From: a virus
Length of the DNA: 24,631 nt
Strand: one strand, 5' to 3'
IMG/VR virus record: IMGVR_UViG_3300043539_000550
Span: 1-24,631 of that record
The position numbers and the translations under genes are program-made. The notes under the pieces are model-generated. The model saw only the letters and a list, made by a program, of their open reading frames with translations, was not told the DNA's origin and made no database searches. Within the stretch, counting starts at the first letter, position 1; each line of letters starts with the position of its first letter. Of the stretch, positions 4,522 to 24,340 are shown piece by piece.

Positions 4522-4527
4522 TGATAT

Positions 4528-4901: not shown

Positions 4902-4917
4902 TTTTAGGAGAATAAAG

Positions 4918-5091: not shown

Positions 5092-5094
5092 TAA

Positions 5095-5959: not shown

Positions 5960-5965
5960 TAGATC

Positions 5966-6261: not shown

Positions 6262-6275
6262 AACTGGAGATAGTC

Positions 6276-6419: not shown

Positions 6420-6425
6420 GGACTA

Positions 6426-6500: not shown

Positions 6501-6504
6501 CTAG

Positions 6505-6576: not shown

Positions 6577-6583
6577 CTATAAT
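6575..6583 (+). promoter_or_regulatory. extended -10 box for a putative small RNA
   Basis: TGCTATAAT, whose first bases are the end of tRNA-Arg. Transcription would start at about 6590, at the first base of a 10-bp stem. No ORF starts there. Confidence 0.5.
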
Positions 6584-6589
6584 AGTAGT

Positions 6590-6660
6590 AAGGGTGTGGT
6601 TAGAGTATGTGTGTCGGGAAACATATATGCTTTATGTTGCAACACCACACCCTCCTAAAT
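6590..6660 (+). ncRNA. candidate small RNA with a 10-bp closing stem
   Basis: AGGGTGTGGT (6591-6600) is perfectly complementary to ACCACACCCT (6644-6653). Inside, AACATA (6620-6625) pairs with TATGTT (6633-6638). An extended -10 box puts the transcription start at the base of the long stem. It lies between the + strand tRNAs and the - strand right arm, so it might instead act as a convergent terminator, but no good T run follows. CCTCCT just after the stem resembles the anti-Shine-Dalgarno sequence of 16S rRNA. Confidence 0.45.
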
Positions 6661-6681
6661 TTTGTATGAAAAACTATTTAT

Positions 6682-7419: not shown

Positions 7420-7548
7420 TTACTTTGCCTTGTGCTTTACTTCGTAAGGTGCGATCTTGGACTTAATACGACCATCTTTATATAATCTAACAATCCATCC
7501 ATCTTTAATCTGAATAGGATTAAACGCTGCTGCTTTTTTCTTTGGCAT
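7420..7548 (-). CDS. basic microprotein, 42 aa
   Basis: The start overlaps the stop of the gene before (TAATG) and its stop abuts the sulfotransferase ATG, so it is locked into this operon. Sequence starts MPKKKAAAFNP and holds DGWIVRLYKDGRIKSK, a short two-strand pattern. Function unknown. Confidence 0.65.
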   Translation of the reverse strand: MPKKKAAAFNPIQIKDGWIVRLYKDGRIKSKIAPYEVKHKAK

Positions 7549-7850
7549 TACTTTACCATCCTAAATGGAGAATCAATCCAACTATCTGACTTAGCGACTG
7601 GAATACAGTTAGGTACTGGCTTTCCGTCTGCACCTGGCTTCATGCCTCTTTGTACATAGCCATCCCAGCAAGGTGCTTGCTTAGCAACTGTTTCAGCCTG
7701 GCAATCTGGACACTCTTCACAGGTTACGTTTAGTTCTTTACAAGTTGGACAACCACAGTCTTCGTATGCCTTACCAATTGATGAGTCGTACATAGCCATA
7801 GCAACTTCTGAATCGATTGCTGAAGAAGAGCATTTTGGGCAGTTTGTCAT
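7548..7850 (-). CDS. Cys-rich zinc-ribbon protein, 100 aa, leaderless
   Basis: CPKC at 4-7 and a dense set CGCPTC...CEECPDC (about 32-50) imply two zinc sites. The C-terminal PCWDGYVQRGMKPG..GKPVPNC motif (about 60-82) is one I recall from many phage proteins of unknown role. An extended -10 box (TGATATAAT) ends 6 bases before this ATG and lies in the last codons of the upstream HNH gene. Operon with the two genes downstream. Confidence 0.7.
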   Translation of the reverse strand: MTNCPKCSSSAIDSEVAMAMYDSSIGKAYEDCGCPTCKELNVTCEECPDCQAETVAKQAPCWDGYVQRGMKPGADGKPVPNCIPVAKSDSWIDSPFRMVK

Positions 7851-7856
7851 ACTATA

Positions 7857-7865
7857 ATTATATCA
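7857..7865 (-). promoter_or_regulatory. extended -10 promoter for the 7850 gene
   Basis: Minus-strand TGATATAAT, 6 bases from ATG; overlaps the stop codon of the HNH gene. Confidence 0.65.
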
Positions 7866-8130
7866 TACCGTTAAGCCTGTTGTAAGTCCTGATCCTGTGG
7901 CAGTTGGCACAAACCACTTCACACTTTTCTATTTCTTTCTTGATAGCCTTCCATGAAAAACCATCATGGATCATCCTTGACACATTGTACTTCTTATCTC
8001 TTATGTGATCAAAGTCTAGGATTATATGGTTACCAACACCACAGTCTACACAGCCAGAATCTTCTTTTATCTTAGCAAGCATCTTCTTATACTGCTGCTT
8101 ATTATAGGTGTCTAACTCTTTGTCAGTCAT
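7858..8130 (-). CDS. HNH endonuclease-family protein, 90 aa
   Basis: CVDCG, then ILDFDHI, then CANCHR near the C-terminus: the zinc-stapled HNH fold, with the DFDH segment providing the active-site His and CxxC pairs holding zinc. I start it at residue 15 of the longest frame because a minus-strand TATAAT ends 7 bases before this ATG. Free-standing small HNH proteins in phages serve in packaging or as homing endonucleases; which applies is unknown. Confidence 0.8.
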   Translation of the reverse strand: MTDKELDTYNKQQYKKMLAKIKEDSGCVDCGVGNHIILDFDHIRDKKYNVSRMIHDGFSWKAIKKEIEKCEVVCANCHRIRTYNRLNGMI

Positions 8131-8137
8131 TGATATT

Positions 8138-8143
8138 ATTATA
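8138..8143 (-). promoter_or_regulatory. -10 box for the HNH gene
   Basis: TATAAT on the minus strand, 7 bases before the ATG at 8130. No -35 visible; it lies just downstream of the structured RNA at 8158-8241. Confidence 0.55.
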
Positions 8144-8157
8144 CCGCCAAATGTTAG

Positions 8158-8241
8158 GTCCCACACAGGCAATTCACCTGACTTGCGCCACGGTCTCTAT
8201 CCAATGGGTAACTAATCCATCACTAAGGTCCTGTGTGGGAC
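8158..8241 (-). ncRNA. candidate small RNA with a 12-bp closing stem
   Basis: GTCCCACACAGG (8241-8230 on the minus strand) is perfectly complementary to CCTGTGTGGGAC (8169-8158), enclosing 60 nt. A minus-strand TATAAT at 8253-8248 places the transcription start exactly at 8241, the first base of the stem. The enclosed sequence can form smaller helices, such as ATGG/CCAT. It is tRNA-sized, but I find neither a T-loop nor an anticodon arm. It sits between pstS and the HNH gene. Confidence 0.5.
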
Positions 8242-8247
8242 ACTTCT

Positions 8248-8253
8248 ATTATA
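8248..8253 (-). promoter_or_regulatory. -10 box for the 8158-8241 RNA
   Basis: TATAAT on the minus strand, just inside the intergenic region before pstS ends; 6 bases from the stem start. No -35 visible. Confidence 0.45.
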
Positions 8254-8256
8254 CTG

Positions 8257-9300
8257 CTACTTTGAACTTATTTCTGCTACTCTCGCCTTTGAGAATTTAA
8301 GCATAGAACTTCTGATTGGCGAGTAGCCAAGATCTTCAGCCTTCTTTCCACAGGTATCAAGCATGAAGTTAAAGAACTTTTTAACTGAATCATTCTTTGA
8401 GTTCTTTTCTTTGTATGCTACACCATAGGTAAATGTAGATATGTTATAAGATAGTTTGTTTGGGTTCTTATAGTTTATCTTAACTACACCACTTTTATCT
8501 GGAATAAAATCTCCAAGAAATACAGAGGCTGCGCTAACTGTTGGTTGTATAAACCTTCTAGCCTCATTCTCAACAGACACTGTCTTTAGTCCTCTTGCAT
8601 ATGATATCTCATTATATCCAATAGAGCCATTTGTAGTGCTCTGTACCATTGCAATTCCATGTGATCCAGAAGCACTGTTCATATACTGCTTAGATATGTC
8701 TCCAGGAAATGCACTTGAAAAGTTTTTATTTCCTGGCTTTGTCCAAATTGTTGGAGCCACAGCATTTAAATATGAAGTAAAAACTTCTGAAGTTCCAGAA
8801 CCATCAACACGGTATACAACTCTAATCTTTGTTGCTGGTATCTTAGGTAGTTTTCCTGATATAAGGTTTTCTTTTAATATCTGTGGGTCGTTCCACATTG
8901 TTATTTGTCCCGCAAAAACTTTAGCAAGAGTATCTTTACTCATCTTTATAGTAACTTTATATCCATCAAGTTTGTAGATAATTCCAATTGGCCCTGCTAC
9001 TAATGGAACATATGTAAACTCTTTTGATGGCTTTACTTCTGTCCCAGAGTAAGGAACATCTGACATAGCAAAGTCTGTTACTCCATTTGAAAACATATTC
9101 TTTCCAGCACCTGAACCAGATGCTCCATACACAACAGAATCTCCTGTTGATTTCATAAATTCGACCCTGCATCTGTCTATAAAGTTAGCAGCAAATGTGG
9201 ATCCAGCACCTTGAAGGTTATCGGCATGTGAAGGGGTAATAAAAAAAGCATTAGCAAATATGGCTAATGCTGCTGATAAAGCAATGAATTTAAATTTCAT
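8257..9300 (-). CDS. pstS: phosphate ABC transporter substrate-binding protein PstS, 347 aa
   Basis: The N-terminus MKFKFIALSAALAIFANAFFI, ending in SHA, is a signal peptide for export. The mature protein begins LQGAGSTFA and contains ASGSGAGKNMF, SDVPYSG and YRVDGSGTSEVFTSYL, the phosphate-binding loops of PstS. It would capture phosphate for the host Pst transporter during infection, as pstS of marine cyanophages is thought to do. I start at residue 17 of the longest frame because of the signal peptide and because TATACT ends 6 bases before this ATG. No pstCAB is present, so it relies on the host. Confidence 0.92.
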   Translation of the reverse strand: MKFKFIALSAALAIFANAFFITPSHADNLQGAGSTFAANFIDRCRVEFMKSTGDSVVYGASGSGAGKNMFSNGVTDFAMSDVPYSGTEVKPSKEFTYVPLVAGPIGIIYKLDGYKVTIKMSKDTLAKVFAGQITMWNDPQILKENLISGKLPKIPATKIRVVYRVDGSGTSEVFTSYLNAVAPTIWTKPGNKNFSSAFPGDISKQYMNSASGSHGIAMVQSTTNGSIGYNEISYARGLKTVSVENEARRFIQPTVSAASVFLGDFIPDKSGVVKINYKNPNKLSYNISTFTYGVAYKEKNSKNDSVKKFFNFMLDTCGKKAEDLGYSPIRSSMLKFSKARVAEISSK

Positions 9301-9306
9301 ACTTAT

Positions 9307-9312
9307 AGTATA
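9307..9312 (-). promoter_or_regulatory. pstS: -10 box for pstS
   Basis: TATACT on the minus strand, 6 bases before the pstS ATG, with no -35 match. The weak -35 fits a regulated promoter, but I see no clear PhoP/PhoB box. Confidence 0.55.
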
Positions 9313-9376
9313 TACGACAAGGCTATAAAGTTTTGTTATAAATGGCAAACAAACAAAGAACTTTAGATGAATAATG

Positions 9377-9479
9377 GAGCAGTTTATGGACTTGCTCAGG
9401 TCTCCCAGGGTGCGACCCTGGCTTATCCGTACTCAGCAATAGGGTTGCTATAAGCAACTGCATGTATCATGACGGAATA
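9377..9479 (-). ncRNA. structured RNA region upstream of pstS
   Basis: Three consecutive hairpins and an outer helix: TCCGT (9426-9430) with ACGGA (9472-9476), enclosing GTTGC/GCAAC (9444-9448, 9454-9458); then CCAGGGT/ACCCTGG (9405-9411, 9415-9421); then GAGCA/TGCTC (9377-9381, 9393-9397). A minus-strand TATAAT (9491-9486) would start transcription at about 9479. It reads towards pstS but ends before the pstS promoter. It could be a small RNA, a leader element or a terminator for Hsp20 transcripts. No known riboswitch consensus recognised. Confidence 0.45.
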
Positions 9480-9485
9480 CTATCT

Positions 9486-9491
9486 ATTATA
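9486..9491 (-). promoter_or_regulatory. -10 box at the end of the hsp20 gene
   Basis: Minus-strand TATAAT just after the hsp20 stop, in front of the structured RNA. No ATG at the leaderless distance. Confidence 0.4.
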
Positions 9492-9908
9492 CTACTTAAT
9501 TTTAATAGACTTGGGCTTTTTATCTTCAGGAACAATACGAACCACATTAACATGCAGCATCCCGTCCTTAAGTTCTGCAGATGTTACTTCCATATACTCT
9601 CCCAGTGCAAAAGATCTTACGAACTTTCTTCCTGCGATTCCTTTATGAACTACCTCTGCATCTGTAACTTCAACAATCTCACCCTTGATAATCAATGTTC
9701 CGTTATCTACTGAAACATCAATATCGTCTTTTGAAAAACCAGCGACAGCCAGTGAAATCTTGTATGTATCTTCATCTAGTTTGATTAGATCATACGGAGG
9801 GTATGACTGTGAGTTTGTTTTATGTGCTGTATTTAGGCGACTCAACTCTCTGTTGAAGCCAATAAAAAAAGGATCATTGAATAGATCCATAGCGTACTTT
9901 GTTACCAT
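9492..9908 (-). CDS. Hsp20/alpha-crystallin small heat-shock protein, 138 aa
   Basis: The alpha-crystallin domain spans about residues 35-130 with LAVAGFSKDDIDVSV and GTLIIKGE, and the C-terminus carries an IKI anchor (SIKIK). The N-terminal MDLFNDPFFIGFNREL is the usual oligomerisation arm. It holds unfolding proteins; phage copies are proposed to protect phage proteins or aid capsid assembly. RBS AAGGGGAA lies just before ATG, and a consensus promoter (9966-9994) precedes a leader of roughly 50 nt, so unlike its neighbours this gene is not leaderless. Confidence 0.92.
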   Translation of the reverse strand: MVTKYAMDLFNDPFFIGFNRELSRLNTAHKTNSQSYPPYDLIKLDEDTYKISLAVAGFSKDDIDVSVDNGTLIIKGEIVEVTDAEVVHKGIAGRKFVRSFALGEYMEVTSAELKDGMLHVNVVRIVPEDKKPKSIKIK

Positions 9909-9965
9909 GTTATTCCCCTTTCAAGCGAATAAGTTAAATTACCCCCCTATTGGGCAGGTATAAAT

Positions 9966-9994
9966 ATTATAGCATAGAAAAGCAGGCCTGTCAA
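9966..9994 (-). promoter_or_regulatory. consensus promoter for hsp20
   Basis: Minus strand TTGACA (9994-9989), 17-base spacer, TATAAT (9971-9966) preceded by TGC. The -35 sits in the loop of the terminator hairpin of the upstream gene. Confidence 0.75.
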
Positions 9995-10008
9995 GTAACA
10001 AGCCTGCT
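9981..10008 (-). terminator. intrinsic terminator after the 10023 gene
   Basis: AGCAGGC (10008-10002) pairs with GCCTGCT (9987-9981), followed by TTTTC on the minus strand. The loop holds the hsp20 -35 box, so termination and the next promoter overlap. Confidence 0.7.
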
Positions 10009-10022
10009 AGTCTAGAGTGAGA

Positions 10023-10322
10023 TTACTTTACCTGGTTAGTAGCCTTGCCTCCACCAGATGACTTCTTTGCAGGAGCCTTCTTTGCGGTCTTCTTAACAAC
10101 CTTTGCAGACTTAACTGCTGCATCTACCTCATCTACTGATGGCATCTTGCCGAATGCAGGATCGTTAGGGTTGGCTGCTCTCAATACAACGGGCACAAAT
10201 GCTCCAAGTAGTGAGTATGCTAGTGTCTGGGGATCTGTAACTCCAGAAGCATACATTGCTGTTGCTGCTCCAAGTACTGATCTTCCGTATGACGCCAGTG
10301 CGTTTTTGATTTGTTGATTCAT
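10023..10322 (-). CDS. holin-like or lysis-associated small protein, 99 aa
   Basis: The first 55 residues contain two Ala-rich hydrophobic helices (about 12-26 and 35-50), then ANPNDPAFGKMPSVDEVDAAV and a Lys/Ala-rich tail with KKSSGGGK. The same KKSSGGGGK tail ends the endolysin at 19632. Proteins of this look accompany lysis genes in actinobacteriophages, so a holin or structural accessory role is plausible but not certain. RBS TAGGAGG overlaps the stop of the XapX gene. A terminator follows. Confidence 0.65.
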   Translation of the reverse strand: MNQQIKNALASYGRSVLGAATAMYASGVTDPQTLAYSLLGAFVPVVLRAANPNDPAFGKMPSVDEVDAAVKSAKVVKKTAKKAPAKKSSGGGKATNQVK

Positions 10323-10332
10323 AATTTTCCTC

Positions 10333-10491
10333 CTAGGATATTATTTTTGTTAGTACTGTAAAACCAATCCATAGACCAATAATTCCTGCGACTCCCGCAA
10401 AAACTGGTGGTGCTGGGACTGGCAATTTGAATGCAGCAAATACTACACCACATCCAAAACCTGTTAATACTGATAGTATCACATCTTTCAT
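10333..10491 (-). CDS. XapX-domain membrane protein, 52 aa
   Basis: MKDVILSVLTGFGCGVVFAAFKLPVPAPPVFAG followed by a second hydrophobic helix matches the XapX (DUF1427) pattern: helix, KLP.PAPP, helix. Two membrane segments at about 4-20 and 30-49. Function of the family is unknown. ATG overlaps the stop of the monooxygenase gene (ATGA). Its place beside the holin-like gene allows a part in lysis. Confidence 0.8.
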   Translation of the reverse strand: MKDVILSVLTGFGCGVVFAAFKLPVPAPPVFAGVAGIIGLWIGFTVLTKIIS

Positions 10492-11369
10492 TTTTTATTT
10501 TCCTCTACATATCGTTTAATAAATGGAACTATTACGTTGACCTCTTCTGATGGTACTGCATTAATAAGCATATGGTTTATGCCTTTACTTTCAAGAGTCT
10601 TTACAAGATCATCAAACTGATCGTATGTAAGATAGGCAGTATCAAGGACAGGCTGTGGAACCTCTCCTTTTTTCCATACTGGTCTGACGACATGGTTTGT
10701 TAACAAGTCAAGTTCTTCTTCTGTTTTTCTAATAACAGGAGTAATGGCAATCATTACTTCTACACCCTTTAGTTCAAGAGGAATCTCTGCAGAACGATGC
10801 CTTAAAAAATCAGACCATGCTCCACGAGCATATATGTGATATGGCAAAATAATTTTGTGACCATACTTTTTTGCTACTTCAAATACATAACTGTTTGTTG
10901 TTGAGACATATACGTCTAATTTATTTTTATGATTTGGGTCACGCCAATATCCTGGAGAATCTTTGTCTTGATCCATTTCATTTAAAACTTTGAGAAATTC
11001 TATCATGTAGTTTGATCTGTCAAGAGGGCTTGATTTGTCATTAACATCTCCAACAACACCACCAACACCATCTTCATGATCTTTTATGTATCCAGAAATT
11101 AAATTAATCTGAAGCCTACCTTTATCTATCCTGTCCATAGATCTATTTATCATAGAAAGATATTGAGGAGATATTGTATATGGACGAATGGCTACTAAGT
11201 ACTTAATGTCTTCGCCTTTTTCTATATCTTTTGCTGTCTTTACAAACATGTCTCCTTCTGGGATATCATGTGTAAACATAACTCCAGAAAAGTTATGGTT
11301 GTTTAGGTTGGATGGATCTTTTGGATCCCCAGGGTTTCCCATTACTCCACCAAAATAATAAAATTTCAT
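10488..11369 (-). CDS. luciferase-like flavin monooxygenase, SsuD-like, 293 aa
   Basis: YLVAIRPYTISPQYLSMI (about 57-74) followed by IDKGRLQINLISG matches the FMN-barrel segment of bacterial luciferase-family enzymes such as alkanesulfonate monooxygenase (typically AVRPG..P......DR.S.GR...N.V.G). The C-terminal half has the usual alternating strands and helices. Shorter than SsuD (about 380 aa). It would use reduced FMN and O2 on an unknown substrate. ATGA overlap with the gene before. A paralogue lies at 18044. Confidence 0.8.
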   Translation of the reverse strand: MKFYYFGGVMGNPGDPKDPSNLNNHNFSGVMFTHDIPEGDMFVKTAKDIEKGEDIKYLVAIRPYTISPQYLSMINRSMDRIDKGRLQINLISGYIKDHEDGVGGVVGDVNDKSSPLDRSNYMIEFLKVLNEMDQDKDSPGYWRDPNHKNKLDVYVSTTNSYVFEVAKKYGHKIILPYHIYARGAWSDFLRHRSAEIPLELKGVEVMIAITPVIRKTEEELDLLTNHVVRPVWKKGEVPQPVLDTAYLTYDQFDDLVKTLESKGINHMLINAVPSEEVNVIVPFIKRYVEENKK

Positions 11370-12159: not shown

Positions 12160-12441
12160 TTACTCCATTGTTAGGGACTGCCATGTTATTCCCCAGTCTG
12201 TCTTTGTCTTATGGCTAGAAAACTCTTTTGATATTTCCCCATTTTCTAAGTATACTCCACCCCAAACTCCCCACTCTTTTCCAGAAACTCCTACAGAAAA
12301 ACATTCTTTTCTTACAGGACACTTAGAGCATAGCAAGTCTACGGCAGGCCTTAGTAATTCATCTTCTTCATACTTATCAAAGAATACATTTGTATCATAA
12401 TCTAAGCATGCAGCATTATCTTTCCACTCATACTTATTCAT
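12160..12441 (-). CDS. whiB: WhiB-family iron-sulfur transcription regulator, 93 aa
   Basis: Four conserved cysteines, C12 and C38-x2-C41-x5-C47, would bind a 4Fe-4S cluster, and GVWGG at 58-62 is the WhiB turn motif. WhiB proteins occur only in Actinobacteria and their phages, which anchors the host assignment. Phage WhiB proteins can bind the host sigma factor region 4 and shut off host promoters. RBS in GTAAGGTAAT, coupled to the genes on both sides. Confidence 0.92.
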   Translation of the reverse strand: MNKYEWKDNAACLDYDTNVFFDKYEEDELLRPAVDLLCSKCPVRKECFSVGVSGKEWGVWGGVYLENGEISKEFSSHKTKTDWGITWQSLTME

Positions 12442-13437: not shown

Positions 13438-13659
13438 TTAAACCCTCAGTCTCCAGTTCATGGCTTTAGGACCTTGCTTTATCATTTGAAACATATGGTG
13501 CTTATATTGTTCTGTTAGTTCTGCATAGATTTCTGGATTTACTAACTCAAGTTTGTCTGTTATAGAGTAAAGCATTTCGCCTTTTTCATCTATTCCAGCC
13601 ATCTCTATGGCACCTTGCATAATTAAATGCTCTACCATTGCTTGGCTTCTTAGGTTCAT
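13438..13659 (-). CDS. hypothetical protein, 73 aa
   Basis: Helical protein with GAIEMAGIDEKGEMLYSITDKLELVNPEIY and a tail containing QGPKAMNW; a related KGPKNMEW string ends the 31-aa protein at 16103. Start overlaps the stop of the nuclease gene (TAATG). No function recognised. Confidence 0.7.
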   Translation of the reverse strand: MNLRSQAMVEHLIMQGAIEMAGIDEKGEMLYSITDKLELVNPEIYAELTEQYKHHMFQMIKQGPKAMNWRLRV

Positions 13660-14066
13660 TACTTCCCAGACTTCTTTCTAGCCTTTGCAAGTGCGTCAAA
13701 GTCCTTAACCTTTGTGTCGCCCAGATATCCCCATGCATAGCCATCATTAATCATCATGTCATTTAAAGACACTGTGTCATCATTAACGTATATCCAACCC
13801 AAGATACGGCCATACTTTTCAGATGAATCCATCTTCTCAGTCTTGATTACAACAGATTTGGCATCTTTTAGAGCCTTCTTTAAATATTCTTTAGACTCAA
13901 GGCCAAGAGCCTTTTCCTTAAGATCTTTTGTGCGAGACTCAGGAGTATCAATACCAGCCAATCTTACACGAGATGAAAACAAAATGTCAAACCCTAAATC
14001 AATAAGAACGTCAATGGTATCTCCATCTACTACATTCTCTACTTTTCTTACATAATACTGATACAT
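13659..14066 (-). CDS. thermonuclease (staphylococcal nuclease family), 135 aa
   Basis: The SNase fold is clear: VDGDTIDV at about 14-21, RVRLAGIDTPESR at about 34-46 (the Arg and Asp of the active site), ALGLESKEYL, and EKYGRILGWIYV at about 82-93 (Glu and Arg catalytic pair), ending with LND.MINDGYAWGY. It cuts DNA or RNA with Ca2+. I start at residue 8 of the longest frame because AAGGGGG lies 6 bases upstream of that ATG. No signal peptide, so it acts inside the cell, for example on host DNA. Confidence 0.9.
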   Translation of the reverse strand: MYQYYVRKVENVVDGDTIDVLIDLGFDILFSSRVRLAGIDTPESRTKDLKEKALGLESKEYLKKALKDAKSVVIKTEKMDSSEKYGRILGWIYVNDDTVSLNDMMINDGYAWGYLGDTKVKDFDALAKARKKSGK

Positions 14067-14077
14067 AATAAGCCCCC

Positions 14078-14362
14078 TTAGACCCAATGTTTAATTATAG
14101 CACTTACAGCAAGAATTGTCCACAGTATATTAAACCAAATAATTGTAGGCAAAGTCTTTACTGTCGATGACCAAATCAATGCAAGGCTTGATACCAATGC
14201 AAAGATGTATAGCCACCACCATTGCTTACCGAATAGTAAGCCTGGAAATATAATAGATATTTTTGTCATAAAAGCAAAGAACTCAACAGTGTTTGGCTTG
14301 TTCCAATACTCTTTGTGTCTCATTGTCTTTAGAGCATTAATCCACTCTGTTCTAAATTTCAT
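14078..14362 (-). CDS. small membrane protein, 94 aa
   Basis: Three hydrophobic stretches, about residues 30-45, 50-65 and 73-90. GGAGGG before the ATG at 14362 fixes the start, 12 residues inside the longest frame. It overlaps the halogenase stop by four bases, so the two are coupled. Function unknown. Confidence 0.7.
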   Translation of the reverse strand: MKFRTEWINALKTMRHKEYWNKPNTVEFFAFMTKISIIFPGLLFGKQWWWLYIFALVSSLALIWSSTVKTLPTIIWFNILWTILAVSAIIKHWV

Positions 14363-15903
14363 TTTAATCCCTCCAAAAATTTCCTGTGATCTACACATTC
14401 TGACACCTTGTAGTCTTGATATTTCTTGTAATAGTCATACATATCAACACCCTTTTTATAGTCTGCAGAATTTTCTATATATGCTTTTGCAACATCTTTA
14501 TTAATTGTGTTGTGTGCAGATCCCACAAAGGTCCAACTATTTGATGACCAGTGCTCTCCAGAGTCAAACTTGTTTGGAAGTCTGACATTCCACTTGTTAA
14601 TTTTTTCTTGCAGATCTTTTGGCGCATTCTCATATGAAAACTTTTTCCAAAACTCTGTATCATTTCTTAAAGTCATATAGTGAAAATATATAAATTCAGA
14701 AATATTATTGTTCATACTAACTATGTTCTTGTTAAACTCTTGTCTTATCTCTTTCGAGTTCTCGAATAGCCATAGCGGATTGTCAAATATCTGTGTCAAC
14801 TCTACAATGCTAACCCAAATTGATGTTGCTTCTAGTGGCTCAACAAAGTTTGCTGCAAGGCCTACTGCAACACAGTTGTTGATCCAGGGCTCTTCATAGC
14901 ATCCAGCATTAAACTTAAAGCCACCCTTGTCTTTTCTTGGATAGGTTGGCTCATAGCCTAAGAACTCTTCTATCTCTTTCACTGCTGCTTCTTCAGAGAT
15001 AAGGGATGAGTCGTAGACATACCCACAACCAAACCTGTTCTGGAGTGGAATCTTCCACATCCATCCGTATTTCATAGCAATTGCTTCTGTGTAGGATGGA
15101 ATCTTATCTGTCATCTCAACAAAAAATGGAACAGCAGAATCTACTGGAAGAAAATCTTTATAACTTTTCCATTTAGAGTCATATACTTTTCCAATGATTA
15201 GCCTGTGAAATCCGCTACAATCAAAAACAAAATCACACATAATCTTTTCATCATTTTCTAAAGTTAAACCATTTACATAGTTATCTTTATCTAGTGAGAC
15301 ATTTTTTATTGTGCCATCAACTACTTTAATTCCTCTTTCTTTTCCTATTTCTTTTAGTCTATTTGCTAGTTTGGTAGCATTAAAATGTATAGAAATATTT
15401 CCTATTTTTTTATAATCATCTATAGGATCTTTTTTAGATACAAATCCGAAATCTCTCTTGTTTGCTTCCAAAGTAAAGGGGACTTTATTTGCTTCTGAAA
15501 TTTTTTCTGTAAAGTCTATCTTCTTTACGCTATTATTTAAAGCAATGCTTGCTGCAATAAGAGGGCTATTAGAAAGATACCTATCGTACACAGCATCAAA
15601 GCCTAGCGACCTATCTGTTGTAGAAAAACCATGGTAATAAAACTCTCCATCATTGTTCCAATTTGTAAACTTGATTCCATTTTTAATAGTTGCATCACAA
15701 TTTTTTATTAGGTCAGACAAAGGAATATTTAAATGGTCAAAGAAATCTGCAAGGTATGGGGTTGACCCTTCTCCTGCTCCCAAGATTCCTATTTCTGTTG
15801 ACTCAATAACAGTTATGTTTAGGTCTGGGTATGATCTTTGGGCTTTAAGTGCAGTAAGCCATCCAGCACTTCCACCACCAACAACAACTATATTCTTTGT
15901 CAT
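14359..15903 (-). CDS. flavin-dependent halogenase (tryptophan-halogenase family), 514 aa
   Basis: FAD-binding GGGSAGW at 9-15, the diagnostic WMWKIP at 281-286, and FVEPLEATS at about 353-361. K74 (DATIKNGIKF) and E355 align by position with the catalytic Lys and Glu of PrnA-type halogenases, so it looks active. Such enzymes chlorinate or brominate indoles, phenols or peptide-bound aromatics using reduced FAD, O2 and halide; the substrate is unknown. Full-length for the family. GGGGAGAAAG ribosome site fixes this ATG. Coupled to the DUF2061 gene upstream (TAATG) and the membrane protein downstream. Confidence 0.9.
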   Translation of the reverse strand: MTKNIVVVGGGSAGWLTALKAQRSYPDLNITVIESTEIGILGAGEGSTPYLADFFDHLNIPLSDLIKNCDATIKNGIKFTNWNNDGEFYYHGFSTTDRSLGFDAVYDRYLSNSPLIAASIALNNSVKKIDFTEKISEANKVPFTLEANKRDFGFVSKKDPIDDYKKIGNISIHFNATKLANRLKEIGKERGIKVVDGTIKNVSLDKDNYVNGLTLENDEKIMCDFVFDCSGFHRLIIGKVYDSKWKSYKDFLPVDSAVPFFVEMTDKIPSYTEAIAMKYGWMWKIPLQNRFGCGYVYDSSLISEEAAVKEIEEFLGYEPTYPRKDKGGFKFNAGCYEEPWINNCVAVGLAANFVEPLEATSIWVSIVELTQIFDNPLWLFENSKEIRQEFNKNIVSMNNNISEFIYFHYMTLRNDTEFWKKFSYENAPKDLQEKINKWNVRLPNKFDSGEHWSSNSWTFVGSAHNTINKDVAKAYIENSADYKKGVDMYDYYKKYQDYKVSECVDHRKFLEGLK

Positions 15904-16106
15904 TACTTTCTCCCCCATTTAACCTTATTCCAACCACGCTCATGGAAGTAATAAAGGATTGTTTTTGTAACTACCTCGAAACTTGCGATTGCACCTGCTG
16001 TAACTGGTTCTTTGGTTATAAGCCAAGCAATAGCAAATGTATCTGCTGTTCCAATTATACGCCAGGTAATGGCCTTTAATGCTGATCTTTGTTTAGATAC
16101 ATTCAT
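15903..16106 (-). CDS. DUF2061 membrane protein, 67 aa
   Basis: KAITWRIIGTADTFAIAWLITKEPVTAGAI and a C-terminal LYYFHERGWNKVKWG match DUF2061: two membrane helices and a conserved YY.HER.W end. I prefer ATG 16106 over an upstream GTG because GGAG is correctly spaced for it and it overlaps the stop of the 31-aa gene (ATGA). Family function unknown. A second copy is at 19414. Confidence 0.85.
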   Translation of the reverse strand: MNVSKQRSALKAITWRIIGTADTFAIAWLITKEPVTAGAIASFEVVTKTILYYFHERGWNKVKWGRK

Positions 16107-16198
16107 GCTGGCCACTCCATATTTTTAGGACCTTTACTGATTATGTTCCAAACCTTAGATACCCATCTCTTTACGCTTTTGCGTAGCCGATATAGCAT
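16103..16198 (-). CDS. 31-aa microprotein overlapping the APS kinase gene
   Basis: Reads MLYRLRKSVKRWVSKVWN and ends KGPKNMEWPA. Its first 44 bases overlap the end of the APS kinase gene in another frame, and its stop overlaps the DUF2061 ATG, the coupling seen all along this operon. Basic amphipathic helix plus a conserved-looking tail; the KGPK.M.W string also appears in the 73-aa protein at 13438. No good ribosome site, so translation needs proof. Confidence 0.5.
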   Translation of the reverse strand: MLYRLRKSVKRWVSKVWNIISKGPKNMEWPA

Positions 16199-16913
16199 GA
16201 ATGTCTGCCCCCAAATCTACTTGTTCAATCTTATATCCGACATCTCTGCCATATACAATGTTAGTAATGTTAGGTAGTCTTAATACTAATGCACCATCCA
16301 TAAATTCATCTTTGGCAATATACTCTTTTACCTGATCAAACTTAAGTGGATCTTTCTCACTTGTATTGTATGTATTACGAACCCCAAGAAGTACCTGCTC
16401 TGTTCTTTTCCCTGCCTCTTTGTAAAGAGCGTGATGTCCTTCATGCCATGGCTGATATCTGCCCAGCATAAGGGTTGTAGGGGCTGTCCAGTCGTGTAAC
16501 TGGCAAGCAGCAATGATAAGGTCAGCCTCTTCTTCTACTGTCATCCCACAGGGGATTCTGACATCACATGACTCTGGGTCTTCCCACATCTTGTTTGTAT
16601 CTTCAAATCTTCCAGACTCAATTCTGTCTACCCAAATTAAAATATCTGGCTTACCAAAGGCTGCACGGGTTAGATCAGTTGGGCATACGAAATCAACTAT
16701 CACTGGAGCAACTCCCTGCTTAGAAATAAGTCTAGCCATGTCTCCCATACGTCTTGCCTGTTCAATTCTGTCTTCAGGGCTAAAACCTAGATCTGAGTTT
16801 ACTGTTGCACGAACCTCATCTGCATTAAGATGGATAGCGTTAATTCTTTCTTTGAGTGCCTTGGCCAACTCTGTCTTGCCTGCACCTGGCAGACCAATAA
16901 TCTGAATAATCAT
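16155..16913 (-). CDS. APS kinase fused to a nucleotidyltransferase domain, 252 aa
   Basis: N-terminal half is CysC-like: Walker A GLPGAGKT at 7-14, NADEVR at 30-35 and GFSPEDRIEQARRMGDMA at 43-60, the pattern of adenylylsulfate kinase, which makes PAPS from APS and ATP. The C-terminal half is a separate adenylyl/cytidylyltransferase-type domain: GRYQPWHEGHHALY (HxGH at 157-160) and ISATQKRK at 241-248, the usual ISSTxxR-type site, closest in look to NMN adenylyltransferases. Its partner reaction is uncertain: ATP sulfurylase-like, or an unrelated nucleotide. ATGA overlap with the hydroxylase before it. It would feed the two sulfotransferases. Confidence 0.8.
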   Translation of the reverse strand: MIIQIIGLPGAGKTELAKALKERINAIHLNADEVRATVNSDLGFSPEDRIEQARRMGDMARLISKQGVAPVIVDFVCPTDLTRAAFGKPDILIWVDRIESGRFEDTNKMWEDPESCDVRIPCGMTVEEEADLIIAACQLHDWTAPTTLMLGRYQPWHEGHHALYKEAGKRTEQVLLGVRNTYNTSEKDPLKFDQVKEYIAKDEFMDGALVLRLPNITNIVYGRDVGYKIEQVDLGADIHAISATQKRKEMGI

Positions 16914-17473
16914 TTTTTCCCTATCTCTGTGTTTGGCATAATGTCAATTAACAAATGTACCCTATCTATTTCACTGCCATTATTTACATAGTGAGTTCTT
17001 GAGTTGTTTATTTCCCAACATTCTCCAGTGCCCATCTTAACCCTATCATCTCCTACACCAAAGAATACACTGTCAGAAGTAACTACTGGGATGTGGTTTC
17101 TTCTTGAAAGCATTAGATAGTCTCCTGCATCATGATGATGTGCTATATCTTGACCTGCTTTTAACTTAATCAAAAGGACCATACCTCTGACACCCTTGTG
17201 GATTCTTTCAAGGTCTGAGATTATTGGCTCAAGAATTTCAAGCAGCCCAGTATCATTAGATGTTTTCTGAGTAGAAAATTCTTCTCCTTCTTTCCACATA
17301 AGATCTGCGGTATAGACAAAGTATGAGTTAGTATCTTTATGAACATAGTAGTTATCTTGTCTTGATGTATTGATAAACCACTCTTCAGAAAAACTATCTA
17401 TATAGTTTTTGATGGGCTCAACATCATACTTACTGTGTTGCTTAAAGTTAAAGTCTTCTAGCGTCTTTCTCAT
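16910..17473 (-). CDS. aspartyl/asparaginyl beta-hydroxylase-family dioxygenase, 187 aa
   Basis: HHHDAGDY at 112-119 and RRNHIPVV at 124-131, then GECWEINNSRTHYVNN (about 150-165) and DRVHLLIDI (about 170-178) match the Asp/Asn hydroxylase (PF05118) pattern. The Fe ligands are two His (in HHHDAG and RTHYV) and R171 would bind 2-oxoglutarate. It hydroxylates a peptide Asp/Asn or a small molecule. Four-base overlaps on both sides tie it to the sulfotransferase and APS kinase. Confidence 0.85.
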   Translation of the reverse strand: MRKTLEDFNFKQHSKYDVEPIKNYIDSFSEEWFINTSRQDNYYVHKDTNSYFVYTADLMWKEGEEFSTQKTSNDTGLLEILEPIISDLERIHKGVRGMVLLIKLKAGQDIAHHHDAGDYLMLSRRNHIPVVTSDSVFFGVGDDRVKMGTGECWEINNSRTHYVNNGSEIDRVHLLIDIMPNTEIGKK

Positions 17474-18054
17474 TTTGCCTCCAGGGTCTGATTAAAATCT
17501 TTAGAATATCCAAAGTTAATAAAGTCAGAACTGTAGAAATCCTGAACCATTTTTATTGCCTCATCTGAATATTCTTGTATATATGATTCTACCACATAGT
17601 TGCCTACATTGTAAAATCCAAGTTCCCAGCCGAGTTCATCCTCTAACTCTTTTAGGTTTTCAAACTTATAAAGTCTTTCTACTTGAAGGATGTCCTGATC
17701 CATAATATAAAAAGACTGGGGTATGTGTAGCAGTGGGCTTATTGTAGATATTTTTCCTTGCTTAATGTTGTCTAGATATTGTGCAAAAGATATGTTTGTT
17801 TGATTAGTTTTGTTGTACTGCTTGTAACAACTGTAGGTTCTTGTGTATGGATTTCTTACAACAGCAAAAGAAAATACTTTTTCATCTATTAAATTTGCCT
17901 CTTTTAAATATGAGTATGGGTCATGATGCCTTGGCCATTCTCTCTTCCAGTTATCCAAATTGTTTTCATCTAATATTTTAGAAATTGAAGAGCCTGCAGT
18001 TTTTGGTATGTGAACAAACAAGACTGAACCATACTTTTTCCCTTTAATTATCAT
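17470..18054 (-). CDS. sulfotransferase-family protein (Sulfotransfer_2), 194 aa
   Basis: HIPKTAGSS at about 15-23 is the PAPS 5'-phosphosulfate loop, and VVRNPYTRTYSCY at about 65-77 is the 3'-phosphate site (R67, S75). The C-terminal part holds LYKFENL and ELGW..G. ATG 18054 is preferred; a GTG 15 bases upstream (18069) is an alternative and neither has a strong ribosome site. Overlaps the monooxygenase before and the hydroxylase after. Acceptor substrate unknown. Confidence 0.88.
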   Translation of the reverse strand: MIIKGKKYGSVLFVHIPKTAGSSISKILDENNLDNWKREWPRHHDPYSYLKEANLIDEKVFSFAVVRNPYTRTYSCYKQYNKTNQTNISFAQYLDNIKQGKISTISPLLHIPQSFYIMDQDILQVERLYKFENLKELEDELGWELGFYNVGNYVVESYIQEYSDEAIKMVQDFYSSDFINFGYSKDFNQTLEAK

Positions 18055-18883
18055 CTTGTTCAGACTCACTATTTATTTCTTTAACAAGTTTATGTACCAT
18101 CGTATCGTTGTTCTGGTTCCATTCATCTTTAAAGTTAGTTGTGTTAGTGAACAACAATAGATCAGTTATCCCTTCATCCTTAAGATCAATTATTTGTTGT
18201 TTAACTGTTTGATAATTTCCAATTATTGACCACTTTAAGGACCTAGGGTTAAGCGCAAGTGAACTTTCTTCATACTCTTTAATATCTTCATCTGATTCTA
18301 AAATGGTTACATTAGCACTGACCATTCGGTTTTTAATGCCATCAAACTTTTCTAGATTTTCTCTGTATGTGTCTAGCATACACAAAGAAGTACCATTAAA
18401 CATTCTGACAGTCTCTAAAGAGTAGTCAGAAAAACCACTAAAAACCATTGGTGGTCTTATTTTTGTTGGGCAATACATTTTGTACATGTTTACAAAATTT
18501 CTCAAGTATGTAGTTCTTTTTTGAATGCTATCAACTGACTCTGATTCCCCAAAGATGTCAAACTCTAAATCTGGCTCATCTTCTCTTTGATGAAAATCAC
18601 CAGCCACCCAGTTAAACACGAGTCTGTTGCTATCTATTTGGTCATATCCTATAGTCATCATTCCAGCATACTGAGCACTTACGTGGTATGGCCTTAAAGC
18701 AATCATGTACTTTAATTTATTTCCTGGAATTAATGCTGCTGCAGACTTTATAAAGTAGTCTCCTTGTTGTGAATGAAAAGTTAGCAAGACTGACTTATAT
18801 CCAGAATCCTCTAGTTTGCTAGAAAGATCTTTTAGTTCTTGTACATTTTTATGCTGATCCCTCAACATGTAATGAATCTTCAT
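18044..18883 (-). CDS. luciferase-like flavin monooxygenase, second copy, 279 aa
   Basis: KYMIALRPYHVSAQYAGMM (about 58-76), followed by IDSNRLVFNWVAGD, matches the same FMN-barrel region as the enzyme at 10488. The N-terminal SKLEDSGYKSVLL and C-terminal DEGITDLLLF also fit the family. Clearly a paralogue, but diverged across most of its length. It overlaps the DUF7455-like gene by one base and the sulfotransferase by about 11. Confidence 0.8.
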   Translation of the reverse strand: MKIHYMLRDQHKNVQELKDLSSKLEDSGYKSVLLTFHSQQGDYFIKSAAALIPGNKLKYMIALRPYHVSAQYAGMMTIGYDQIDSNRLVFNWVAGDFHQREDEPDLEFDIFGESESVDSIQKRTTYLRNFVNMYKMYCPTKIRPPMVFSGFSDYSLETVRMFNGTSLCMLDTYRENLEKFDGIKNRMVSANVTILESDEDIKEYEESSLALNPRSLKWSIIGNYQTVKQQIIDLKDEGITDLLLFTNTTNFKDEWNQNNDTMVHKLVKEINSESEQDDN

Positions 18884-19104
18884 TACTGTGCTAGTTTTTC
18901 TCGCTCATCAATAACACTGATCATAAATGACATCATGCTATTGTAGCCATCTGGAATAGCCATGATTTTATTGTAGTGGTGACCACAGAAGAATAAATCT
19001 CCAGTTATTCCAGTAACCTTGACTAGTGCCTCTGCGTTGCATCGATCACAACGATCAAGGGGTGTAAGTGTCCATTCTTTTTCTTCAGCCTTGTCTTTGA
19101 TCAT
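18883..19104 (-). CDS. DUF7455-like zinc-ribbon protein, 73 aa, leaderless
   Basis: LTPLDRCDRCNAEALVKV (about 12-29), then FFCGHHYNK, gives C-x2-C and C-x2-H ligands as in the actinobacterial DUF7455 family. I start it at MIKDKAEEKEW because TATAAT ends 7 bases before that ATG; a longer frame (to 19152) has no signal. First gene of the run leading to the halogenase, so its promoter may drive the whole cluster. Confidence 0.8.
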   Translation of the reverse strand: MIKDKAEEKEWTLTPLDRCDRCNAEALVKVTGITGDLFFCGHHYNKIMAIPDGYNSMMSFMISVIDEREKLAQ

Positions 19105-19111
19105 ACTAAAC

Positions 19112-19117
19112 ATTATA
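19112..19117 (-). promoter_or_regulatory. -10 box at the head of the tailoring operon
   Basis: TATAAT on the minus strand, 7 bases before ATG 19104. It overlaps the first base-pairs of the FmdB gene's end. Confidence 0.6.
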
Positions 19118-19303
19118 CTACCGCTTTCTGTTATCAGTGGAATAAAATCCACTACCGTTGAATACTGCTCCTACATTAGAGTATACACGAACTAGAGGTG
19201 AATTGCAAGTTTCACATTTATATCCAGGATCGTTTTCTTGAATAGATCTTTCTTTGGTAAATCTTTGTGCACATGGCATACAATCATATTCGTACAGTGC
19301 CAT
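19118..19303 (-). CDS. FmdB-family zinc-ribbon protein, 61 aa
   Basis: YEYDCMPCAQRFTKER at 4-19, CETCNSPLVRVYS at about 30-42, then FNGSGFYSTD at 48-57: the full FmdB/Zinc_ribbon_8 pattern with two CxxC pairs and the GSGFY.TD end. Family role is regulatory but not settled. Confidence 0.88.
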   Translation of the reverse strand: MALYEYDCMPCAQRFTKERSIQENDPGYKCETCNSPLVRVYSNVGAVFNGSGFYSTDNRKR

Positions 19304-20305: not shown

Positions 20306-20335
20306 ATTATATCAGAACAATAGCATGTCTGTCAA
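20306..20335 (-). promoter_or_regulatory. promoter for the endolysin gene
   Basis: Minus strand TTGACA (20335-20330), 18-base spacer, TATAAT (20311-20306) preceded by TGA. The transcript has a short leader with the ribosome site AAGGAGG. Confidence 0.75.
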
Positions 20336-20347: not shown

Positions 20348-21139
20348 TTATATTTTTACTAGGGATGGATTAAGAGCAGACTTTGCTCCCGCAATAGCCT
20401 TTTCAATTTCAGAACAAACAAATGCAAACTCTTCTTCAAAGATTTCTGGAGATCTATCAGGTCCCATTGCTGGGCTCTTTCCTTCTGCAATCATTGCCTC
20501 TTTTAGAGTTTTTTCGATGTCATAGTTTAGGACTGTGCATGTAAAGTGCTTCATCACATATCCATCTTTATCAATTAAGTACTTCTCGTAGTTACCACCC
20601 ATTTGCACTCCATCATAGAATCCAATGTTTAACCAAGGTGACTTAAATTTTCCTTCAACATTTCCATCCTCTAGAGAATCTCTCATTGATCGCAACTGAT
20701 CCATTTGTGATGAAATTTCTGCATATACTTCGTGAGGTGGTAGCGTTGGCTGTCCTAGTCCGTTAGTTCCAGTACCTAGTCCATTTTCTAATACTTCATT
20801 TAATAACTCATGAGGAACTGAAGAAACCATCTCTGAGTACTTGAAAGTTGTGTTGTAAACTTCTTCTCCATACGCCTTTGAGTCTAGACCGCAAGTAATT
20901 CCTTGTGACCACTTTCCCTTAGTAACTCCTGGACCACAATAATCATTTGTTGGTATGGCAATAATCTCAAAGTCTTCACTGTTGTACTTGTCTTGAAGCA
21001 TCTGAAGAACCTCTAGTTGGTTGGCGTTTCCACAACCGACTGTAGTATTCGCAACCAATGTAACCTTGCCCTTATATTGGTCAAGATGGTTCGGAGTGCC
21101 TTCTGCTGAGTTTAATTGGATGTCATATATTGATCTCAT
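20348..21139 (-). CDS. glutathione-peroxidase-like (thioredoxin-fold) protein, 263 aa
   Basis: GKVTLVANTTVGCGN at 24-38 and FEIIAIPTNDYCG at about 54-66 match glutathione peroxidases, with C36 in the place of the catalytic Cys/Sec. KYLIDKDGYVMKHF near residue 205 matches the family's second half. At 263 aa it is far longer than the usual 160-180: extra segments lie between residues 100 and 190 and at the C-terminus. It may reduce peroxides during infection. I start at residue 18 of the longest frame because TGCTATAAT ends 6 bases before this ATG. Confidence 0.75.
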   Translation of the reverse strand: MRSIYDIQLNSAEGTPNHLDQYKGKVTLVANTTVGCGNANQLEVLQMLQDKYNSEDFEIIAIPTNDYCGPGVTKGKWSQGITCGLDSKAYGEEVYNTTFKYSEMVSSVPHELLNEVLENGLGTGTNGLGQPTLPPHEVYAEISSQMDQLRSMRDSLEDGNVEGKFKSPWLNIGFYDGVQMGGNYEKYLIDKDGYVMKHFTCTVLNYDIEKTLKEAMIAEGKSPAMGPDRSPEIFEEEFAFVCSEIEKAIAGAKSALNPSLVKI

Positions 21140-21145
21140 GACTAT

Positions 21146-21154
21146 ATTATAGCA
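21146..21154 (-). promoter_or_regulatory. extended -10 promoter for the 21139 gene
   Basis: Minus strand TGCTATAAT, 6 bases before ATG. A second extended -10, TGTTATAAT, is at 21208-21216. Confidence 0.65.
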
Positions 21155-21225
21155 CATTTTATTGCTTATTTTACGCTGGCAGAGTGGCACGATCTTGTTT
21201 CTTTTAGATTATAACATTTTGATAA

Positions 21226-22691: not shown

Positions 22692-23564
22692 TTAGTTACG
22701 AATGTATGATGCAGTGCCAATTAAAATCTTTGGAAGAGATGTGAGATACTCACCAAATGTTTTAAATGTGTTGCGATTTACGTAAGATGCTGCAGATACT
22801 ACAGTTGCTACAGAACTACCAGCAGTATCTGTTGGAGAACCGTTATACTTAGTAATGCGTACCTTGCCAAGTGCAACCATGTCAAGTCCAGGACCTGTGT
22901 TTGTTGCTGCCTCTAGTTGTGTTGCATTACCTAGTGCTCCCACGCCGATTACACCATTAACACATGAAGGGAATCCCACAACATCTCGTCGACGATCATT
23001 TCCTGTTGCAACAAAAACTGGAATGTTATTAGTGTTTAATGATGCTACTGCATTAATAACAACTTTATCTGTTGAGCATAGTGCAAGGTTTCCTGTACTT
23101 ACTGTCGACTGACTAATTGACAAAGCATCAATGCTGTACTTTGCTGCATTTTGTGATACCCAATTAATTGCTGAAGCCAATGCTTTCACATCTCCTCGTG
23201 AGTTTCCAAGACTTGTGACATCGTTAAATCTAACAAAGACAATCTTTAGATTTGGATTTACTGTTAGGGCAGCCTTTACCATAGAGTCTCCATGGTAGGT
23301 TGCATTGTTTACAGACACTGGCCAAGGTGCAGATGCTGCTCCCTTTCCTTCCATAAACAGTTCTCCGTTAGGACAAGACATATTTTCTTTTGGGGTTGTT
23401 GACTTTACAGTTGTAAAGCAGACCTCATGAATAATTGATGGAAAGTTATTTGAGTTAATAGCAGAGTCAATAATCGCTAAGACTCTTTCATCTTGTGCTT
23501 GTGCTGGTGCAACTGCTGTAAATGCAATTGCAATTGATAGTAGTGCTAGTAGTGTTTTCTTCAT
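22692..23564 (-). CDS. secreted subtilisin-like serine protease (S8), 290 aa
   Basis: Signal peptide at 1-23 (MKKTLLALLSIAIAF... ending APAQAQ). The catalytic triad is readable: D33 in LAIIDSAI, H91 in ATYHGDSM, S251 in AGSSVATVV, with the oxyanion N189 in VATGND. A Cys pair near 49/64 and C163/C201 may form disulfides. The usual His motif (HGTxVA) is altered to HGDSM. RBS AAGGAG before this ATG. Unusual for a phage: it would be exported, perhaps to cut surface proteins of the host or of competitors. Confidence 0.85.
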   Translation of the reverse strand: MKKTLLALLSIAIAFTAVAPAQAQDERVLAIIDSAINSNNFPSIIHEVCFTTVKSTTPKENMSCPNGELFMEGKGAASAPWPVSVNNATYHGDSMVKAALTVNPNLKIVFVRFNDVTSLGNSRGDVKALASAINWVSQNAAKYSIDALSISQSTVSTGNLALCSTDKVVINAVASLNTNNIPVFVATGNDRRRDVVGFPSCVNGVIGVGALGNATQLEAATNTGPGLDMVALGKVRITKYNGSPTDTAGSSVATVVSAASYVNRNTFKTFGEYLTSLPKILIGTASYIRN

Positions 23565-23581
23565 TTTATTCTCCTTGTTTT

Positions 23582-23800
23582 TTATTGTTTGATTTTTAAA
23601 ACTACTTGGCAAGGGTCTCCGCCCTCTTCCCATTCTTGTTGTTCTTCGTCTGTCATATAGGGATCACCCTCATGTGTATTGCAGAACGGTTCAGTTACCC
23701 ATCCCCGTTCAATACCGTTTTCAAGCCAGATTTCAAACTCGTCAAAGTCTGATTCTATGTTCTGAATGTCCTTTAGGATCTCTTCAAATTCTTCGCTCAT
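23582..23800 (-). CDS. acidic hypothetical protein, 72 aa, leaderless
   Basis: Very acidic, with a conserved-looking segment EPFCNTHEGDPYMTDEE and WEEGGDPCQVVLKI, which I recall from unnamed actinophage proteins. Consensus promoter ends 6 bases before ATG. Two Cys and one His could bind a metal. Confidence 0.7.
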   Translation of the reverse strand: MSEEFEEILKDIQNIESDFDEFEIWLENGIERGWVTEPFCNTHEGDPYMTDEEQQEWEEGGDPCQVVLKIKQ

Positions 23801-23806: not shown

Positions 23807-23835
23807 AGTATACTCCTATAGACTGACGATGTCAA
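23807..23835 (-). promoter_or_regulatory. consensus promoter for the 23800 gene
   Basis: Minus strand TTGACA (23835-23830), 17-base spacer, TATACT (23812-23807), 6 bases to ATG. The -35 lies in the end of the neighbouring Ntn-hydrolase gene. Confidence 0.8.
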
Positions 23836-24340
23836 CTGGGCCCATGCATGATGGGTTAAATTTAATTGCAGCATTTACTGCTTGGACTACTCTATTCCTT
23901 GCATTTTTCTGCTTATCTGTTGCATATAAAACTCCATATGCATACTCTGCTCCAGACCCCATAGCAAGGTATGGGAGTGTATACTTAGATAAAGACATGT
24001 CCGCAGAACTATGCTCATAGATGTTTCCACGAACTGCAATAATTAAACCAAGGTCTCCATCTTTTGATGTATCAACCCAGAACTCGTTGTAAAATTCTTT
24101 TAGTTCTTTAATAAATCTTGTCTGCATAAACTTGTCTGTGTCTTTAATGTTAGGTGGTGTTGGCTTAAAGTTATAACGGATTCTTTCTCCGTCCATTGAT
24201 CCAGCGTAACCAATAAGATAAGGACCTATCTTCCAAACCTTTGGTGCTTCAAGTGCTAGAATGGTGCCATCATCTGATGCCCCACGATCTCCAGCCATGT
24301 AAATTTTATCTTCATGGCGTACAACTGCAATACAGGTCAT
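23816..24340 (-). CDS. Ntn-hydrolase, HslV/proteasome beta-like, 174 aa
   Basis: MTCIAVV would expose Thr2 as the N-terminal nucleophile once Met is removed; AGDRGASDDG at 16-25 and APKVWKIG at about 32-39 supply the conserved Asp and Lys sites of proteasome-type hydrolases. Length fits HslV (about 175). No HslU-like ATPase is present in the window, so it may use a host partner or act alone, for example as a self-compartmentalising protease. RBS GGAGAGG, 8 bases before ATG. Confidence 0.78.
   Translation of the reverse strand: MTCIAVVRHEDKIYMAGDRGASDDGTILALEAPKVWKIGPYLIGYAGSMDGERIRYNFKPTPPNIKDTDKFMQTRFIKELKEFYNEFWVDTSKDGDLGLIIAVRGNIYEHSSADMSLSKYTLPYLAMGSGAEYAYGVLYATDKQKNARNRVVQAVNAAIKFNPSCMGPVDIVSL

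Follow-up and report, generated by a model that had tools for sequence, protein, structure and literature searches.

Why would a phage carry, side by side, genes for a sulfotransferase, a hydroxylase, an adenosine 5′-phosphosulfate (APS) kinase-like protein and a halogenase, and do their products work together? The question is raised by a linear virus record of 24.6 kb (IMG/VR record IMGVR_UViG_3300043539_000550, positions 1 to 24,631; this whole stretch of 24,631 nucleotides is here called the window), in which these genes form a minus-strand run from 19152 to 14078. We propose, with a probability of roughly 45%, that the run is a modular tailoring cassette occupying a fixed cargo slot in phages probably infecting freshwater actinobacteria, and that its enzymes would act in the steps set out below.

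Gene layout and source of the locus

The run and the genes that border it are as follows.

18883 to 19152, minus strand: DUF7455 zinc-finger-like gene (PF24254, E 1.8e-14), which forms the conserved left edge of the slot
18044 to 18883, minus strand: LLM1, a luciferase-like/SsuD-like flavoprotein of 279 aa, by NCBIfam and profile similarity
17470 to 18069, minus strand: SULF1, a predicted 3′-phosphoadenosine 5′-phosphosulfate (PAPS)-type sulfotransferase of 199 aa (PF03567, E 7.7e-8)
16910 to 17473, minus strand: HYD, a predicted 2-oxoglutarate (2OG)/Fe(II) enzyme of the Asp/Arg-hydroxylase family, 187 aa (PF05118, E 4.3e-12)
16155 to 16913, minus strand: the fusion, an APS-kinase-like kinase joined to a minimal nucleotidyltransferase resembling nicotinamide mononucleotide (NMN) adenylyltransferases (NMNATs), 252 aa (PF01583, phrog_10255)
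15903 to 16115, minus strand: DUF2061 protein (PF09834, E 4e-23)
14359 to 15918, minus strand: HAL, a predicted flavin-dependent (tryptophan-type) halogenase of 519 aa (PF04820, E 2.4e-101)
14078 to 14398, minus strand: g106, a small hydrophobic protein with about three membrane segments by hydropathy
13659 to 14087, minus strand: SNase-type nuclease (PF00565, E 5.8e-16), the right border of the slot
12160 to 12441, minus strand: WhiB-like regulator (PF02467, E 6e-12), an actinophage marker

With the longest starts, the successive junctions from DUF7455 to g106 are overlaps of 1, 26, 4 and 4 nt, a 39-nt gap before DUF2061, and overlaps of 16 and 40 nt. A reading made from the sequence alone (hereafter the sequence-only reading) had described here overlapping genes for a monooxygenase, a sulfotransferase, a hydroxylase, an APS kinase fusion and a halogenase; family matches place all of these genes in the run, and most borders do overlap, by 1 to 40 nt, but the gap breaks the series and the two constant partners DUF2061 and g106 had been missed.

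A near-identical 61.7-kb record contains all 50 of the 60-mers sampled from the window and encodes the large subunit of a terminase as well as a minor tail protein; hence, the source is a tailed phage. The WhiB gene and the freshwater provenance of the relatives suggest that the host is probably a freshwater actinobacterium. No named phage matched the window in a Megablast search.

A fixed cargo slot with exchangeable modules

Among relatives, we compared 86 distinct loci with a complete slot from DUF7455 to WhiB, 39 of which were sampled through WhiB without selecting for the run; these loci are related, so that Fisher tests and p-values overstate their independence, and most of the records are fragments. 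The slot lies at a fixed place between the DUF7455 gene, which borders all 86 loci, and a nuclease-WhiB block, and where it is empty the nuclease directly follows DUF7455. Of the 39 WhiB-sampled slots, 14 contain SULF1, HYD, the fusion, DUF2061, HAL and g106 in that order, with LLM1 in front in 10 of them; 11 contain the fusion but not SULF1, some along with relatives of HYD, LLM1 or SULF2 (a second sulfotransferase-like protein, see below); and 14 have no fusion, 12 of these being without any cassette gene and 2 with HAL-g106 only. SULF1 occurs in 27 of the 86 slots, accompanied by HYD in all 27, by the fusion in 25 and by HAL in 23; in the two slots with SULF1 and no fusion inside, the fusion is found just past WhiB. 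Even in a distant record (41% identity), SULF1 still stands beside HYD. Likewise, 56 of the 57 slots with the fusion also contain DUF2061, and all 31 slots with HAL contain g106. The identity of SULF1 across loci tracks that of HYD (rho 0.78) and the fusion (rho 0.75), and the median dN/dS of the run genes, 0.10 to 0.20, shows that they are under purifying selection.

The most serious competing explanation is that the hydroxylase-sulfotransferase pair, the kinase fusion and the halogenase are independent cargo with separate purposes, merely sharing an accessory-gene slot. Consistent with this, fusion-DUF2061 stands alone in many slots, as HAL-g106 does in the two already mentioned; HAL also occurs elsewhere in other surroundings, among genes for FkbM, a nuclease and Hsp20; and identities are uncorrelated between HAL and the fusion (rho 0.16) or DUF2061 and HAL (rho 0.04), with loci in which they have reassorted, such as one where the fusion is 100% identical and HAL 68%. 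Against it, SULF1 never occurs without HYD, it is joined by both HAL and the fusion in 14 of 14 WhiB-sampled slots, and the order is conserved. We therefore give independent cargo appreciable weight, short of an even chance.

The cassette is thus a set of exchangeable modules, SULF1-HYD, fusion-DUF2061 and HAL-g106, rather than one unit. The idea of a phage-borne tailoring cluster stands, since it recurs with its gene order and catalytic residues preserved, and so does the expectation that its genes stay together in relatives as far as fixed order and constant pairs go. What finds no support is the notion of a single coupled system: two of the modules come alone, identities reassort, and some large records have a halogenase or two sulfotransferases and lack the fusion.

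In one record (L020, about 1800 to 10600) the nuclease-g137-g116-WhiB block is duplicated; in another (L035, about 2400 to 9500) it separates the modules, with SULF1-HYD ahead of one such block and fusion-DUF2061-HAL-g106 after WhiB.

The predicted tailoring enzymes

SULF1 has the motifs and the fold expected of a PAPS-type sulfotransferase. Its 5′-phosphosulfate-binding motif KTAG and 3′-phosphate-binding motif VRNPY.R..S are invariant in 18 sequences, and its AlphaFold model, of moderate confidence (pLDDT 84), adopts a sulfotransferase fold, the best Foldseek matches being SULT1A3 (E 8e-5) and heparan sulfate 6-O-sulfotransferase (E 8e-4). A second sulfotransferase had been claimed elsewhere in the window.

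6682 to 7419, minus strand: SULF2, sulfotransferase-like by motif only (HIPKTGG and FREP...S)

This protein has the PAPS-loop-like motif, but it has no family match in Pfam, PHROG or NCBIfam, and its only PDB match (5t03, E 0.03) is marginal. In HYD, the HxD...H triad (H113, D115 and H161) and the 2OG-binding R171 are invariant in 19 sequences. Its nearest solved structure is L-proline cis-4-hydroxylase (E 3.9e-5, weak), with a beta-hydroxylase a weak second; hence, “Asp/Asn hydroxylase,” as the sequence-only reading had it, is to be taken as a family name only.

HAL is clearly recognizable as a flavin-dependent halogenase by its sequence. In an alignment of relatives, K79 and E363, which we take to be catalytic from PrnA/PyrH, and the WxWxIP motif are kept in 63 of 63 sequences, and the flavin adenine dinucleotide-binding motif GxGxxG(W) is present in every sequence covering the region (61 to 62 of 63). 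Hence, the catalytic motifs of HAL, SULF1 and HYD are conserved rather than lost in most copies. The catalytic loop of HAL reads EATS, where the compared structures read ESTG.

Other phage-borne members of the Trp_halogenase family, namely, VirX1 and the halogenases of cyanophages and Pelagibacter phages, offer the closest parallels. HAL is 35% and 40% identical to halogenases of marine phages, the best match being that of Pelagibacter phage HTVC008M (40% over 92%), and VirX1 (6qgm) is retrieved with it by sequence search. HAL differs from VirX1-type enzymes in that it is found in actinophages, is always accompanied by g106, has EATS in place of ESTG, and adjoins a sulfotransferase and the kinase fusion. 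In HTVC008M (L003, 9421 to 11380), a 2OG dioxygenase gene overlaps the halogenase gene, a similar hydroxylase-halogenase pairing. Halogenases have been reported in 20 of 153 cyanophages (PMC10452541). Actinomycetia phage DSL-LC01 (PMC10611076) is likewise a freshwater phage with an assigned actinobacterial host, WhiB and a tryptophan halogenase, but that halogenase is only 30% identical to HAL and adjoins a glycosyltransferase, and no sulfotransferase, hydroxylase or fusion is annotated within about 15 kb of it.

The kinase-nucleotidyltransferase fusion

The kinase half of the fusion matches PF01583 (APS_kinase) above the Pfam cut-off (E 5.5e-15, residues 2 to 84), and over residues 1 to about 115 both the sequence and the predicted fold have their closest counterparts among APS kinases (AlphaFold pLDDT 91.9; the top Foldseek matches are all APS kinases). 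At the positions D63, R66, F75, R80, N83 and S107 (P. chrysogenum numbering), which we take to be the APS site, the Asp, Arg, Phe and Arg residues are kept, Asn is replaced by Gln or His and Ser by Cys, and the lid is not alignable. Residues from about 145 to 252 constitute a short (about 110 aa) nucleotidyltransferase of the HxGH type, whose closest matches are NMN adenylyltransferases (2qjt, profile E 1.7e-9); residues 149 to 186 give a sub-threshold CTP_transf_like match. The domain lacks the middle part of the NMNATs and has an invariant GRxVGY...I[S]AT..R signature. By its best NCBIfam score the protein lies below the curated CysC equivalog cut-off (TIGR00455, 59.6 versus 138.7 bits), it falls short of that for NadR (TIGR01526, 13.9 versus 341 bits), and it lacks the PF01747 ATP-sulfurylase match expected of a PAPS synthase. 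By these scores, it is a divergent protein, not plain CysC.

Similar proteins are widespread. The family phrog_10255, which corresponds to the whole fusion, has members in Stenotrophomonas, Xanthomonas and Clavibacter phages. On SAR11 and SAR86 chromosomes (L272, L278, L283, L296, L300, L301 and L314) the kinase and the nucleotidyltransferase are two adjacent genes, and in several alphaproteobacterial genomes they share one open frame; this recurrent adjacency or fusion ties the two activities together. PF01747 ATP sulfurylase is absent from 12 of the 14 genomes with the kinase or fusion, including all from SAR11/SAR86, the CysDN type being outside this search. Around the separate SAR11 genes lie those for a methyltransferase, a Rieske protein, an M24 peptidase and an enoyl-CoA hydratase. 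Some other viral contigs (L235 to L239) encode a relative that consists of the kinase alone and lacks the nucleotidyltransferase. As for DUF2061, a role as a sulfate-assimilation partner was considered and rejected, for none of 30 Pseudomonadota DUF2061 loci has an APS-kinase-like gene within 1.5 kb.

Three known systems are instructive here. Human PAPSS1/2, with an N-terminal APS kinase and a C-terminal ATP sulfurylase, share the domain order, the kinase fold and several APS-site residues with the fusion, but the C-terminal half of the latter is the minimal NMNAT-related HxGH domain and not PF01747. The cysC genes annotated in published freshwater phages (PMC10914622) also encode an APS_kinase domain, and WhiB actinophages occur in the same data sets; the fusion differs in that its kinase half is divergent and joined to an NMNAT-like nucleotidyltransferase. 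The third, phage NadR/NadM salvage of nicotinamide adenine dinucleotide (NAD) (PMC9503650), likewise combines a HIGH-family nucleotidyltransferase with a P-loop kinase, but in the reverse domain order, with a different type of kinase and without the shortening of the nucleotidyltransferase.

This last parallel suggests that the fusion might not serve sulfation at all but the synthesis or salvage of a nucleotide cofactor, NadR-like or similar, with the kinase acting on a nucleoside or nucleotide. The NMNAT similarity of the second half favors it, as do the known phage pathway and a PnuC-like gene in the window, which in several relatives adjoins the fusion. However, the kinase half, with its DxxR, F, DR and RR motifs, is of the APS-kinase rather than the NadR type, and the nucleotidyltransferase is truncated relative to NMNATs. 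PnuC occurs in 0 of the 86 slots, so its adjacency appears to be positional, perhaps just reflecting a shared place near WhiB, and we set it aside as proof of NAD salvage. We consider this alternative unlikely, while leaving it some weight.

Does the fusion supply PAPS?

The sequence-only reading had an APS kinase supplying PAPS to the sulfotransferases. This is plausible: the kinase half resembles APS kinases most closely, but it belongs to a divergent, NMNAT-like fusion and the presumed hosts might offer no APS. Among the WhiB-sampled loci, a sulfotransferase-like gene of any kind accompanies the fusion in 17 of 25 cases, whereas none of the 14 loci without the fusion has one. This locus test replaced counts over whole records, which were dropped because the fusion-negative records are often short fragments and several come from one lineage. 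Further, large fusion-positive records without SULF1 or SULF2 have sulfotransferase-like genes of other families (G025, G026, G030, G031 and G291 to G293 among them).

Assimilatory sulfate reduction is missing from the acI actinobacteria (PMC5301498). Should these be the hosts, there would be no APS for a plain APS kinase to act on, and either the nucleotidyltransferase makes it or the fusion serves another role. One could go further and regard the fusion as a minimal, self-contained PAPS synthase, whose NMNAT-derived half would be a third kind of sulfate adenylyltransferase feeding the hydroxylase-sulfotransferase-halogenase cassette. We think this improbable; if true, it would give phages, and SAR11 and SAR86 as two genes, sulfate activation in hosts without the pathway.

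The luciferase-like proteins

The monooxygenase claimed outside the run is indeed there.

10488 to 11369, minus strand: LLM2, a second luciferase-like protein (PF00296, E 1e-7)

LLM1 has no Pfam match above the cut-off; it matches the NCBIfam alkanesulfonate-monooxygenase family (alk_sulf_monoox, E 1e-8) and SsuD by profile (E 1.7e-15). We take Arg226 and His228 to be the catalytic residues of SsuD; these positions are not conserved in the profile alignment of the LLM proteins, which thus resemble SsuD, with an uncertain enzymatic activity. That SsuD-like proteins and a CysC-like kinase feed host sulfur assimilation, as the similarity to SsuD and the publication of freshwater-phage cysC as an assimilatory sulfate reduction gene (PMC10914622) might suggest, is very improbable in view of these lost positions, the missing acI pathway and a cassette that combines sulfotransferases, not reductases.

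Proposed action of the cassette

Taking these findings together, we propose that HYD would install a hydroxyl group, and that SULF1 would transfer sulfate from PAPS onto that hydroxyl or the same substrate. The fusion would produce the activated sulfate: its kinase half would serve as an APS 3′-kinase, and the adenylyl substrate might come from its nucleotidyltransferase half. Together with g106, its partner in the membrane, HAL would halogenate an aromatic group, working alongside the sulfation branch rather than being strictly coupled to it. The most likely target would be a host surface or membrane-linked molecule, modified during infection, for example, against superinfection.

Several observations weigh against this proposal. 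When 8 kb of downstream sequence is required, the contrast in sulfotransferase-like genes shrinks to 6 of 10 versus 0 of 3 (p 0.19, not significant), the positives being the longer records. One 120-kb record (G020) has SULF1, SULF2, HYD and HAL, the fusion being absent from the whole record. HAL and the fusion are each found without the other modules, and there are large records with a halogenase and no fusion. The scanned SAR11 neighbors of the kinase and nucleotidyltransferase genes include no sulfotransferase and give no pointer to sulfate. The activities, the substrate, the product and the membrane target are all inferences, and a common product for the enzymes is a proposal.

Other features of the window

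20306 to 20335, minus strand: sigma-70-like promoter match (12/12 with an extended −10), a candidate for the transcription unit by consensus match only

A second strong sigma-70-like match, again by consensus only, lies at 14122 to 14094. The window also encodes a protein with a glutathione-peroxidase-like N-terminus followed by about 190 residues of another kind (20348 to 21190), subtilase-like (22692 to 23633) and proteasome-like (Ntn; 23816 to 24340) proteins that are kept beside the slot in many relatives, a PstS-like phosphate-binding protein (8257 to 9348), Hsp20 (9492 to 9908), a PNKP-type HAD phosphatase (5485 to 5934) and the small PnuC-like protein (4528 to 4812; PF04973 at the Pfam cut-off).

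Novelty and implications

That no phage system with this combination had been described holds for the open-licence literature and named phages, in which we found none; searches of named phages with SULF1, HYD and LLM1 gave distant matches or none, and no SULF1-HYD pair. To that extent the combination appears new in phages; phage halogenases and freshwater phage cysC are each already known. The widespread kinase-nucleotidyltransferase fusion is likely to be taken by surveys as a sign of assimilatory sulfate reduction, and its real product is a testable question. Single halogenase or cysC genes have precedents in phages; an exchangeable slot for sulfation, hydroxylation and halogenation would show phages building chemical tailoring pathways, and this in bacteria that are among the most abundant in fresh water.

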